DNA from: Methylobacillus methanolivorans | Lineage (GTDB): Bacteria; Pseudomonadota; Gammaproteobacteria; Burkholderiales; Methylophilaceae | Direction: 5' to 3' | Assembly (NCBI RefSeq): GCF_020531845.1 | Contig: NZ_JAJAVF010000004.1 | Span: forward strand, 352,045-416,044 | DNA: 64,000 bases | In this document: in pieces, positions 29,407-52,989 of the stretch | Layout: each line of letters opens with the position of its first letter | How positions within the stretch are numbered: the stretch's first letter is position 1 | Notes under the pieces: generated by a model | What the model saw: only the letters and a program-made list of their open reading frames with translations | Databases searched by the model: none | Told to the model about the DNA's origin: nothing | Translations under genes and position numbers: made by a program

Positions 29407-29439
29407 TCAAATCAGGGTTTTAACGTACATTGCGCCAAT

Positions 29440-31499
<2,060 letters not shown>

Positions 31500-48649: not shown

Positions 48650-49936
48650 CTAGTCTAGGTTGTCCGGGTCGGTTTCTTCCAGTTCGATGGAGGCTGCAAG
48701 TAGTGCCAGCCTTGCGACCACGCCGTAGGCATAAAAGCGGTTGGGCGGAGCGTCTGGTGCGCCTGCACAATCTGGTGTGGAGCAGGGTGTTGCAAAGGCG
48801 AGGGGCTCAAAGTGCATGCCTGGGGCATTGAGGTTTTCGTCAGCGCCACGTGAAGTATGCACACGGTAGAAACCACCTACCACGAAGTGATCCATCATGT
48901 AGATCACAGGTTCGGCAACGGCCTCGTTGAGGTGCTCGAAGGTATAGACGCCTTCTTGCAGGATGACTTCGCTAACCTTGAGCCCTTCCTTCACCACGGA
49001 CATTTTGTTGCGTTGTTTGCGATTGAGGTCACGCACATCGTCAGGGCTCTTGACGGTCATGATGCCCATGCCATAGGTGCCAGCATCGGCCTTGACGATG
49101 ACAAAGGGTTCCTGCTTGACGCCATATTCTGCATATTTTTCACGGATTTTCGCCAGCAGGGCCTCAACTTTGTCTGCTAGTCGATCTTCGCCAACACGTG
49201 CATGAAAATCCAGGCCGTCACAGGTGTCAAAATAAGGGTTGAGTAGCCAGGGGTCTATCTCGATCAGGGAAGCAAATTCTTCCACGATGTGGTTATAGGC
49301 AGTGAAATGATGCGATTTACGGCGCGTGGCCCATCCTGCGTGCAATGGCGGGATTAACGATTGCTCCAGCCCTTGCAGTATTTCAGGGATACCACCTGAC
49401 AGGTCATTGTTGAGCAGGATGGCGCAACTATCGAAGTTATCCAGTACCAGGCGATTGCCCTTGCGTTGCACTGGCTCTAGCAGGATGCTGTGGCCATCAT
49501 GCGTTTCCAGAAATGTCGGTTCTGTAATCTCGGGTGAAATGCTGCCTATGCGCACTTCCAGCCCTGCCTGGCGCAGGATGTGGGTAAGGGCATATACATT
49601 ACGCAGGTAAAAGGTGTTGCGCGTGTGATTCTCTGGAATCACTAGTAGTCGGCGAGCATCAGGGCAGATTTTTTCTACAGCCACCATTGCCGCTTGAATC
49701 CCGAGCGGCAAGAAGTCTGGGTTGAGGTTGTTGAAGCCTCCTGGAAACAAATTGGTATCCACTGGCGCGAGTTTGAAGCCTGCGTTACGTAAATCTACTG
49801 AAGCATAGAACGGTGCGCCATGTTCTTGCCATTGGCTGCGGAACCAGTGCTCAATGCGCGGCATGTTGTCGAGCAGCCGTTTTTCCAGTTCAAGTAAGGG
49901 GCCGGTAAGGGCCGTTGTAAGGTGTGGAACCATCAT
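48650..49936 (-). CDS. gshA: Glutamate-cysteine ligase, betaproteobacterial type
   Basis: First step of glutathione synthesis, gamma-glutamylcysteine formation. This belongs to the GshA form found in betaproteobacteria and acidithiobacilli (TIGR02049 type), unrelated in length to the E. coli enzyme. Segments include SVDLRNAGFKLAPVDTNLFP, NNDLSGGIPEILQGLEQ, KADAGTYGMGIMTVKSPDDV and GGFYRVHTSRGADENLNAPG. I use the ATG at 49936 with AGGTG eight bases upstream; a TTG at 49960 is in frame. The gshB gene follows by 13 bases. Confidence 0.92.
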   Translation of the reverse strand: MMVPHLTTALTGPLLELEKRLLDNMPRIEHWFRSQWQEHGAPFYASVDLRNAGFKLAPVDTNLFPGGFNNLNPDFLPLGIQAAMVAVEKICPDARRLLVIPENHTRNTFYLRNVYALTHILRQAGLEVRIGSISPEITEPTFLETHDGHSILLEPVQRKGNRLVLDNFDSCAILLNNDLSGGIPEILQGLEQSLIPPLHAGWATRRKSHHFTAYNHIVEEFASLIEIDPWLLNPYFDTCDGLDFHARVGEDRLADKVEALLAKIREKYAEYGVKQEPFVIVKADAGTYGMGIMTVKSPDDVRDLNRKQRNKMSVVKEGLKVSEVILQEGVYTFEHLNEAVAEPVIYMMDHFVVGGFYRVHTSRGADENLNAPGMHFEPLAFATPCSTPDCAGAPDAPPNRFYAYGVVARLALLAASIELEETDPDNLD

Positions 49937-50001: not shown

Positions 50002-50026
50002 AAAAAAAAGGGCGCTATAAGCGCCC
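50002..50026 (-). terminator. Terminator of the predicted sRNA
   Basis: Seven-base arms GGGCGCT (50010-50016) and AGCGCCC (50020-50026) with a three-base loop, followed on the minus strand by an uninterrupted run of eight T (50009-50002). It lies between the gshA start codon (49936) and amtB, so the transcript it ends is neither gshA nor amtB. Confidence 0.87.
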
Positions 50027-50105
50027 TGAGGAGGAGGAGATAATGCATAAAACTAGGCAGTAAAATGTTCCAGGTCTTGCGACGTAAAGATCACATTACG
50101 CTTGC
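50002..50105 (-). ncRNA. Predicted sigma-54/NtrC-controlled small RNA with anti-Shine-Dalgarno tract
   Basis: The minus strand of the gshA-amtB gap has a complete small transcription unit without a plausible coding frame. A sigma-54 promoter (50115-50130) places the start at about 50103-50106. The RNA of about 100 bases ends at a GGGCGCT/AGCGCCC hairpin (50010-50026) followed by eight T. Directly before this hairpin lies UCUCCUCCUCCUC (50028-50040), a single-stranded pyrimidine tract complementary to strong ribosome-binding sites. The amtB transcript is already ended by its own terminator at 50266-50295, so this RNA is independent. Two NtrC-like sites lie upstream. Known nitrogen-regulated sRNAs such as NrsZ of Pseudomonas are also sigma-54 dependent, but I see no sequence similarity I can vouch for. 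Function is inferred: translational repression during nitrogen limitation. Confidence 0.68.
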
Positions 50106-50114
50106 TAATACATA

Positions 50115-50130
50115 AGCAAGTGCTGTGCCA
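50115..50130 (-). promoter_or_regulatory. Sigma-54 promoter of the predicted sRNA
   Basis: TGGCACAGCACTTGCT on the minus strand matches the consensus TGGCACG-N4-TTGCW with a single mismatch and the exact GG/GC spacing. The -12 element lies inside an inverted repeat CTTGCT/AGCAAG (50101-50120). The -24 and -12 elements equal those upstream of the porin-glnK-amtB operon. Confidence 0.82.
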
Positions 50131-50179
50131 GTTTTTTAGGGCCAAATCAGGCTGGTTTTGCAAGGATGTCAATGAATGC

Positions 50180-50217
50180 TGTGATCAAGTGGTGCAGGAT
50201 TGCCCCGATTGGGTGCA
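50180..50217 (-). promoter_or_regulatory. Tandem NtrC-like binding sites upstream of the sRNA
   Basis: TGCCCCGATTGGGTGCA (50201-50217) matches TGCACC-N5-GGTGCA at 11 of 12 defined positions; TGTGATCAAGTGGTGCA (50180-50196) matches at 8 of 12. Their centres are 21 bases apart, two helical turns, and about 105 and 84 bases upstream of the predicted start, suitable for enhancer binding by phosphorylated NtrC. Confidence 0.68.
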
Positions 50218-50265: not shown

Positions 50266-50295
50266 AAGAAAAACGGGCGCTAAAAGCGCCCGTTT
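50266..50295 (-). terminator. Rho-independent terminator after amtB
   Basis: Perfect 11-base arms AAACGGGCGCT (50271-50281) and AGCGCCCGTTT (50285-50295) with an AAA loop; the minus strand continues as TTTTTCTTT. It lies 21 bases downstream of the amtB stop codon. Confidence 0.92.
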
Positions 50296-50315: not shown

Positions 50316-51701
50316 TTAGTAGTGATAGGCACGTTCACCGTGCTCAGCAGTATCCAGGCCTTCTCGTTCAGCTTCTTCAGTGGCACGCAGGCCGATGAAG
50401 AGGTCAACGATCTTGAACAAGATGTAGCTACCGAGGCCGCCCCATACAATCGTCACGCCAATCGCAACTGTTTGTGCGTAGAGCTGGCTGCCCATGGTCA
50501 CGCCTTCTTCGTAGCCTACGCCACCGAAATCAGTGCTCATGAGGATGCCAGTGCCGATCGCGCCGATCAAGCCAGCGACACCGTGGATGCCAAATACATC
50601 CAAGGAATCATCGTAGCCCAGTTTAACCTTGAGGCTGGTGACTGCCCAGAAGGCGATCACGCTGGCGATAAAGCCAAGGATGATGGAGCCAACAGGGCCA
50701 AGGAAGCCGCAAGCAGGGGTGATGGCGACCAAGCCTGCTACTGCACCAGAAACGGCTCCTAGCAAGGATGGTTTGCCCTTGAACAACCATTCAGCAAACA
50801 ACCAGCCTAGTACAGCAGCACCAGTGGCGGCTTGAGTGTTGATGAGTGCGAGGCCAGCAGTGCCATCGGCAGCCAGTTCACTACCTACGTTGAAGCCGAA
50901 CCAGCCTACCCACAGCATGGAAGCACCAATCATGGTCAATGTGATGCTGTGCGGAGGCATCGCTTCCTTGCCATAGCCCAGGCGCTTGCCGACTACAATC
51001 GCACCGACCAGTGCGGCAATACCAGCATTCATGTGCACCACTGTGCCACCAGCAAAGTCAGCTGCGCCTAGTTCGCCGAGGAAGCCGCCGCCCCATACCA
51101 TGTGGGCAATCGGGATGTAGACGAATGTGACCCACAACGCGAGGAAGGCGAGTACTGCAGAGAATTTCATGCGCTCTGCAAAACCACCGACAATCAGTGC
51201 AGGGGTAATCGCGGCAAAGGTTAATTGGAAGGTCACGAAGACATATTCAGGGATAGTGCCGCCATCCAGTAGGGTGTCTGGCGTAATGCCCGCGAGCAGG
51301 GTTTTGCTGAAGCCGCCGATATAGGCGTTCAAGCTGCCACCGTCAGTGAAGGCCAGGCTGTAGCCATATACGACCCAAATCACGGACATGAGTGCAGTGG
51401 TGACAAATACCTGTGTCAGGACAGAAACCATATTCTTGGTGCGCACCAAGCCACCGTAGAATAGAGCAACACCCGGAATGATCATCGCCAACACCAATAC
51501 GGTGGCAACGATAGTCCAGGCGGTATCGCCAGCGCTGAGAGTTGGCACGGCCTCAGTGACGGTTTCGACGACAGCAGCGGCGGCAGGAGCGACTTCGGTG
51601 GTAACGGCCTCGTCAACGACGACAGCTGCCTCTTCAGCTAGCGCAAAGCCAGAGAATCCTAGCGCGCTAACCAGTGCAATCATGGAAAGAATTTTTTTCA
51701 T
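50316..51701 (-). CDS. amtB: Ammonium transporter Amt
   Basis: Inner-membrane ammonium channel, a trimer of eleven-helix subunits; 461 residues including a signal sequence (MKKILSMIALVSALGFSGFALA) and a short Ala/Val/Glu-rich periplasmic segment before helix 1. The start is the ATG at 51701 with AAGGGG upstream; the longer frame runs into glnK. Pore histidines are in VVHMNAGIAALVGA and FGIHGVAGLIGAIGTG, and DTAWTIVATVLVLAMIIPGVALFYGGLVR is the Amt N-terminal signature. glnK precedes it by 10 bases; the encoded PII protein closes the channel when nitrogen is ample. Confidence 0.96.
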   Translation of the reverse strand: MKKILSMIALVSALGFSGFALAEEAAVVVDEAVTTEVAPAAAAVVETVTEAVPTLSAGDTAWTIVATVLVLAMIIPGVALFYGGLVRTKNMVSVLTQVFVTTALMSVIWVVYGYSLAFTDGGSLNAYIGGFSKTLLAGITPDTLLDGGTIPEYVFVTFQLTFAAITPALIVGGFAERMKFSAVLAFLALWVTFVYIPIAHMVWGGGFLGELGAADFAGGTVVHMNAGIAALVGAIVVGKRLGYGKEAMPPHSITLTMIGASMLWVGWFGFNVGSELAADGTAGLALINTQAATGAAVLGWLFAEWLFKGKPSLLGAVSGAVAGLVAITPACGFLGPVGSIILGFIASVIAFWAVTSLKVKLGYDDSLDVFGIHGVAGLIGAIGTGILMSTDFGGVGYEEGVTMGSQLYAQTVAIGVTIVWGGLGSYILFKIVDLFIGLRATEEAEREGLDTAEHGERAYHY

Positions 51702-51711
51702 TTTGGACCCC

Positions 51712-52065
<354 letters not shown>

Positions 52066-52973: not shown

Positions 52974-52989
52974 AGCAACACCTGTGCCA
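52974..52989 (-). promoter_or_regulatory. Sigma-54 promoter of the porin-glnK-amtB operon
   Basis: TGGCACAGGTGTTGCT on the minus strand matches TGGCACG-N4-TTGCW with one mismatch and correct GG/GC spacing, 61 bases upstream of the porin start codon. A GGTGC half-site at 53057-53061 may be part of a weak NtrC enhancer. Confidence 0.85.

Follow-up and report, generated by a model that had tools for sequence, protein, structure and literature searches.

A predicted NtrC/sigma-54-driven small RNA gene with an anti-Shine-Dalgarno segment between amtB and gshA in Methylobacillus methanolivorans and its relatives

The gap between amtB and gshA of Methylobacillus methanolivorans (contig NZ_JAJAVF010000004.1, positions 352,045 to 416,044; this stretch of 64,000 nucleotides is referred to as the window) appears to carry a free-standing gene, at 50002–50105 of the minus strand, whose product would be a trans-acting small RNA some 104 nt long, driven by NtrC and sigma-54, that would block translation through an anti-Shine-Dalgarno segment. 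We put the probability of this reading, which is drawn from sequence comparison, at about 0.8. The RNA gene is very probably real, and well supported because the unit recurs in relatives; its predicted control by NtrC and sigma-54 is also very probable. That it is transcribed, responds to nitrogen, uses Hfq and blocks translation is what we infer from these features. The RNA is apparently undescribed, yet of an already known kind. A preliminary description of this DNA had proposed an undescribed NtrC/sigma-54-driven small RNA, a view supported by the motifs and their recurrence in relatives, and three observations go beyond it: the RNA has an anti-Shine-Dalgarno segment, it matches the ribosome site of glnK, and shorter sigma-54 RNA genes form a second set of loci.

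On the minus strand, the gap shows, in order, an NtrC-like palindrome, a half site, a sigma-54 site, about 104 bases, and a hairpin followed by eight T (Table 1). Re-reading of the sequence found all of the elements proposed earlier in place on this strand. The two NtrC-like sites do start 21 bases apart and the first matches at 11 of 12 positions, but the second proved to be only a half site. The promoter has the single mismatch ascribed to it, the hairpin with its eight T ends at 50002, and the terminator-like hairpin said to follow amtB was found as well. It had also been claimed that no credible gene overlies the RNA, and indeed the sole listed frame across it on that strand, 39 aa long, opens with TTG upstream of the promoter. 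The glnK operon, which has its own sigma-54 promoter, ends beside the small RNA; upstream of that promoter (52974–52989, minus strand) is a possible NtrC half site. Elsewhere in the window, a TPP riboswitch was detected at 29434–29544 (plus strand, 62.7 bits), the sole Rfam match of the window at gathering score.

Table 1. Features of the predicted small RNA gene and its neighbourhood (window coordinates).
Feature	Position	Strand	Basis or remark
gshA (glutamate-cysteine ligase), downstream neighbour	48650..49936	-	TIGR02049, 650.4 bits
Predicted small RNA, ~104 nt	50002..50105	-	start inferred 11-12 bases past the -12 GC
Intrinsic terminator, hairpin (50027-50009) and T8	50002..50027	-	terminator scan and covariation
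Unpaired anti-Shine-Dalgarno segment UAUCUCCUCCUC(CUC)	50028..50042	-	core 50042-50031
Small 5' hairpin GUC-GCAA-GAC	50074..50083	-	covariation
Sigma-54 (-24/-12) promoter TGGCACAGCACTTGCT	50115..50130	-	11/12 to consensus
NtrC-like site 2, half site TGCACCACTTGATCACA	50180..50196	-	sequence; TGCACCA in 7/7 aligned copies
NtrC-like enhancer site 1 TGCACCCAATCGGGGCA	50201..50217	-	11/12 to TGCACY-N5-RGTGCA
Terminator-like hairpin trailing amtB	50271..50295	-	terminator scan
amtB (ammonium transporter)	50316..51701	-	TIGR00836, 444.6 bits
glnK (PII protein)	51712..52050	-	NF007946, 188.4 bits
glnK ribosome site GAGGAGATAA, candidate target	52053..52062	-	10-base perfect complement of RNA 50043-50034
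Sigma-54 promoter before porin-glnK-amtB TGGCACAGGTGTTGCT	52974..52989	-	11/12, same score as the small-RNA promoter

NtrC and sigma-54 sites were scored against established consensus strings. When the 200 bases preceding the promoter were shuffled 500 times with dinucleotides kept, the score of the first NtrC-like site was reached once. Across the 64 kb, NtrC-like scores of at least 11 occur at two places, each read in either orientation, where a shuffled window gives 1.6 counts, and since this frequency is no rarer than chance, the weight of these sites lies in their place and conservation. A sigma-54 score of 11 is reached at four places in the window, compared with a mean of 0.3 in ten single-base shuffles of it. 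All 21 copies in relatives have, like the window, a -24/-12 promoter, of the form TGGCAY-N5-NTGC, with TTGC in 20 and ATGC in one (L125 was read by eye). Predicted NtrC sites lie upstream of the sigma-54 site, as in an NtrC/sigma-54-dependent small RNA gene: in 16 of the 20 scored relatives, a set that leaves L125 aside, an NtrC-like palindrome scores 10/12 or better, in 15 of these at -86 to -93 from the promoter, and in the other four the site is weak (8 or 9 of 12). For L089, L091, L099, L092, L122 and L097, the site was matched by 11 to 30 of 500 shuffles. In L089/L286 a long insertion separates enhancer and promoter, both of which are retained. Three family genomes (L081, L100 and L105) also have a sigma-54-like site of closely similar letters ahead of a type IV pilin-like gene.

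The predicted fold of the RNA consists of a weak 5' part and the terminator, with the stretch ahead of the terminator left open, and the consensus fold shows no hairpin competing with the terminator. The open stretch holds UAUCUCCUCCUC, which is unchanged in 15 of 15 copies (alignment A1), and CUCCUCC is present in 22 of 22 copies (alignment A2). The segment bearing CUCCUCC is the complement of a strong Shine-Dalgarno site, and this CU-rich complement is unpaired in the predicted folds. A T-run follows the hairpin in all 22 copies, so that the RNA has a U-rich 3' end, and Hfq is present in all 21 relatives that carry it. The likely action is blocking of ribosome sites, probably with Hfq, because the open segment is an anti-Shine-Dalgarno sequence and its CUCCUCC is found in every copy. 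The window RNA scores 123.3 bits against covariance model R1, which had the window sequence among the 15 it was built from, and the terminator scan gave 11 terminator-like sites in 8 kb compared with 7.9 from shuffles.

Conservation follows the proposed elements. Mean identity over the window and six close relatives is 72% for the NtrC sites, 24% for the spacer between enhancer and promoter, 86% for the sigma-54 site, 51% for the bases separating it from the RNA start, 86% and 95% for the two halves of the RNA, and 84% for its terminator. The amtB terminator has a mean identity of 62%, and the flanks have 29% (amtB terminator to enhancer) and 47% (small-RNA terminator to gshA). In a 22-copy alignment that was fitted to the structure, and is hence biased in its favour, 98.5% of the cells of nine consensus pairs are paired and eight of the nine pairs show two-sided changes, a number reached by none of 500 shuffles; slid versions attained at most 54.6% paired cells and two such pairs. 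The 5' hairpin contributes three pairs, all with two-sided changes (95.4% of cells paired), and the terminator hairpin six, of which five have two-sided changes (100% of cells paired). The altered terminator stems of L302–L304 are directly legible.

These features suggest the following sequence of events. When nitrogen is short, phosphorylated NtrC would bind at 50217–50180 and activate sigma-54 polymerase at 50130–50115, as the motifs and their conservation indicate. Transcription would stop at the RNA's own terminator, judging from the covariation of the hairpin and the eight T. The complementarity of UAUCUCCUCCUC suggests that it may then pair, probably with Hfq, to the Shine-Dalgarno sequences of certain mRNAs and so block their translation.

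The distribution of the gene was followed in a sample of 187 whole genomes of the family, reached via an amtB match to Methylotenera sp. A 229-base query matched 18 of these at E 0.001, of which 14 carry the amtB-gshA small-RNA unit. The four matches dropped were pilin promoters (G150, G152), an amtB terminator (G085) and a short amtB-linked form (G130), and a second match in G179 (L106) was also dropped after reading. A covariance model from 15 sequences (14 relatives and the window) raised the number of carriers to 21 of 187, with one match per carrier at E 0.1. At this threshold 36 genomes were matched, 21 being kept and 15 dropped. Nine of the dropped matches were read, and comprise three of the short type (G041, G042, G053), the short amtB-linked form of G130, and five with no fitting promoter (G055, G056, G071, G102, G113); the remainder are G037, G040 and G144, which appear as short-type loci under the short-gap pattern, and G162, G172 and G180, which were left unread. 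Conservation of promoter and terminator in related genomes, set beforehand as a test of the preliminary description, thus extends to 21 of the 187 family genomes, but only to that part of the family. The other 166 family genomes, which include the centre genome G001 and many small genomes (0.7 to 1.4 Mb), yielded no convincing copy, and the gene is therefore lineage-restricted. An order-wide model search gave matches in six of 399 genomes (a sample that includes some family members), four of which are carriers; two weak order-level matches (L137, L138) were dropped, having no sigma-54 site in the stretch read. The window itself groups with the carrier genomes by sequence: its GlnK is 96–98% identical to that of six carriers, and its AmtB 89–93% identical to that of five and matched in pieces of 65–93% in the sixth.

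According to tblastn, amtB adjoins the RNA unit in 20 of 21 relatives. The exception, L099, has no amtB in its stretch, nor in the longer L298, and keeps the RNA. NtrC (TIGR01818) is above cut-off in 19 of the 21 carriers; G043 has a fragment, and in G060 NtrC was not found at E 1e-150. Hfq is above cut-off in all 21.

The adjacent gshA raises the question of whether the unit might instead be a nitrogen-controlled leader of gshA-gshB, with the hairpin acting as an attenuator that passes some polymerase. Gene and unit are neighbours in 20 of the 21 relatives; in the window gshA lies on the same strand and starts about 65 bases past the terminator. However, L124 has gshB without gshA and still has promoter, RNA and terminator; the retention of the RNA in L099 and L124 therefore favours a gene of its own over a gshA leader. 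All 22 copies retain the terminator hairpin, with compensating changes, the consensus fold shows no competing hairpin, and the best-conserved part of the RNA is the anti-Shine-Dalgarno segment, which attenuation does not need. Moreover, a TAAAAT block stands between terminator and gshA in six of seven aligned rows and could be gshA's own promoter. A leader is thus improbable. A tiny protein is a far weaker prospect and highly improbable, whether encoded by the RNA itself or by the plus strand past the ribosome-site-like GAGGAGGAGATA, where the window would give MHKTRQ and some relatives METEQ: plus-strand GAGGAGGAGATAATG does read as a ribosome site and start, but the start codon is absent in L099, L101 and L102, frames vary among relatives (by eye), and promoter and T-run terminator are both oriented along the minus strand. 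The chance that a sigma-54-like site and a terminator have come together by accident is close to negligible. While the motifs are individually short, and a lone NtrC-like or terminator-like site often arises by chance, their conservation, spacing and covariation argue otherwise, as does the ordered pattern of a sigma-54 site, 58–88 bases and TCTCCTCC, which has 20 matches in the 187 family genomes (18 of them this RNA unit) against one for the reversed-pattern control.

A different question is how widely the RNA would act. Instead of regulating a few mRNAs, it might be a broad, unspecific brake on translation during nitrogen starvation, a possibility we regard as doubtful. The segment resembles the Shine-Dalgarno complement in general, and GAGGAGATA ahead of ATG has 40 matches in 14 genomes, among which the 30 that were read (five being the RNA gene itself) include no gene common to all 14 genomes; a presumably ccoN-like gene lies behind GAGGAGATA in three of the 14. 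According to the available text of PMC5688073, overexpression of ncS27, an RNA of the RF02278 family, slows growth, which also fits a brake. On the other side, the model finds one match per carrier in 21 carriers at E 0.1, and conservation spans the whole RNA and not the segment alone.

For an RNA that acts on selected mRNAs, glnK is a leading candidate target in the close group, and we tentatively suggest an incoherent feed-forward loop that would limit GlnK-AmtB during starvation. Its GAGGAGATAA, directly ahead of the start codon, is the most stable perfect match to the ATG and GTG starts of the window. This perfect-stack scoring, which omitted TTG starts, replaced a duplex scan with the whole RNA because the long-loop energies of the scan were not trusted; in that unrestricted scan glnK was outside the best 14 of the 51 genes of the window. 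The background for ranking consisted of 185 likely starts, picked under a simple rule within 400 kb of a single relative (G059) and used for every row. Against it, the glnK sites of the window and six close relatives, which come in five different letter versions, are equalled or beaten by 1, 3, 1, 1, 8, 1 and 1 starts. In eight more distant relatives, where the RNA segment of one member of the group served for scoring, glnK has only a six-base AGGAGA, and 25 of the 185 starts do as well or better. The ranking omits L292, L293, L301 and L304 (near-duplicates), L295 and L298 (no glnK in the stretch) and carrier G043. An anti-Shine-Dalgarno RNA suits every strong Shine-Dalgarno site, so that complementarity by itself argues only weakly for a target, and as the glnK site ranks strongly only in the close group and fell outside the best 14 of the duplex scan, glnK is a fair hypothesis for that group and unproven elsewhere.

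Other sigma-54-dependent small RNAs include the Qrr sRNAs of Vibrio and CrcZ of Pseudomonas, which have other activators and inputs. At Rfam gathering scores, nothing was detected over the RNA unit in the window or in the loci of 20 relatives. Membership of RF00519 (suhB/MmgR) was rejected (22.6 bits versus a cut-off of 41, which none of the 187 family genomes reaches), as was that of RF02278 (18.9 bits versus 50; 0/20 relatives' loci at gathering score). A weak match to RF03032 narK (50079–50129, minus strand) was also set aside, most of its alignment being due to the letters of the sigma-54 promoter; the RF03032 model itself opens with what resembles a -24/-12 promoter. NrsZ of Pseudomonas aeruginosa is described in the accessible part of PMC9308961 as produced under nitrogen limitation via NtrB/C and RpoN, at least 226 nt long, processed, adjoining ntrC, and acting on rhlA via a ACAGGCAG motif. 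The window RNA shares the NtrC/RpoN type of control, here predicted from motifs, but is about 104 nt long with a CUCCUCC segment, lies beside amtB and gshA and not ntrC, and lacks the ACAGGCAG motif; it was not assigned to NrsZ. Closest in logic, as far as the available portion of PMC7143759 describes it, is MmgR of Sinorhizobium meliloti, a short, Hfq-dependent, NtrC-induced RNA with RpoN listed at its promoter and an anti-Shine-Dalgarno motif. That RNA is alphaproteobacterial and has the motif in its first loop, whereas the segment of the window RNA is unpaired ahead of the terminator. The toxic double-hairpin RNAs of RF02278 (ncS27 in PMC5688073; also PMC4603805, both as far as available) share a betaproteobacterial origin, a CU-rich ribosome-site complement and a terminator with the window RNA, but have two hairpins in place of an open segment, and no sigma-54 site was found within 70 bases upstream of any of the 30 RF02278 loci looked at. 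Searches of an open-licence library turned up no previous account of an RNA like this from these methylotrophs, and no paper there that contains both Methylotenera and sRNA.

A pattern with a shorter gap (28–58 bases) revealed a second set of loci, with 16 matches in 14 of the 187 family genomes, while the reversed control had no match. All 16 have a hairpin-like repeat and then a T-run. Eight lie behind a glycogen-synthase-like gene, named like the other neighbours here from its protein letters, with an oligoribonuclease-like gene on the other side in four (by eye). Five adjoin a glyA-like gene (L255, L256, L260, L261 and L262, by eye), and in G186–G188 such a glyA-adjoining short RNA is present together with the amtB-gshA RNA. 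The rest, also placed by eye, are L259 behind amtB, L263 before gshA (in G039, which also bears a glycogen-synthase copy) and L264 elsewhere. An NtrC-like site of at least 10 was found in four of the 16 short loci and in none of the eight glycogen-synthase copies; L249–L254, L257, L258 and L263 (G037–G042, G053, G055) combine a sigma-54 site, CUCCUCC and a terminator without an NtrC-like site of 10/12. A short RNA with the same three elements lies behind a more distant amtB in L130 and L259 (G130, G144), and is perhaps a shortened form of the amtB-gshA RNA gene. Across the wider order, this shorter-gap pattern occurs in 10 of 349 genomes (control 0), with a hairpin-like repeat and T-run in seven of the ten (by eye), and the neighbours differ from those in the family. 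The seven loci, in as many genomes, that combine a sigma-54-like site, 28–58 bases, TCTCCTCC and a terminator-like repeat are L307–L311, L313 and L314; L308 and L309 are ahead of similar ABC-transporter-like genes, and L313 and L314 are alike in the letters behind TCTCCTCC. A speculative extension, to which we give somewhat less credence than to the glnK proposal by itself, is that the family holds a set of sigma-54-driven anti-Shine-Dalgarno RNAs at amtB-gshA, glycogen-synthase-like and glyA-like sites, some fed by NtrC and others apparently by other activators, and that the amtB-gshA copy represses glnK in an incoherent feed-forward loop.

Methylotrophs grow on one-carbon compounds, and their carbon and nitrogen supplies are closely tied. 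If the proposed reading is true, the small RNA would add a post-transcriptional arm to nitrogen control in these bacteria. It would also be a test case for target choice by an anti-Shine-Dalgarno RNA, and the 22-copy alignment could seed a new RNA family.
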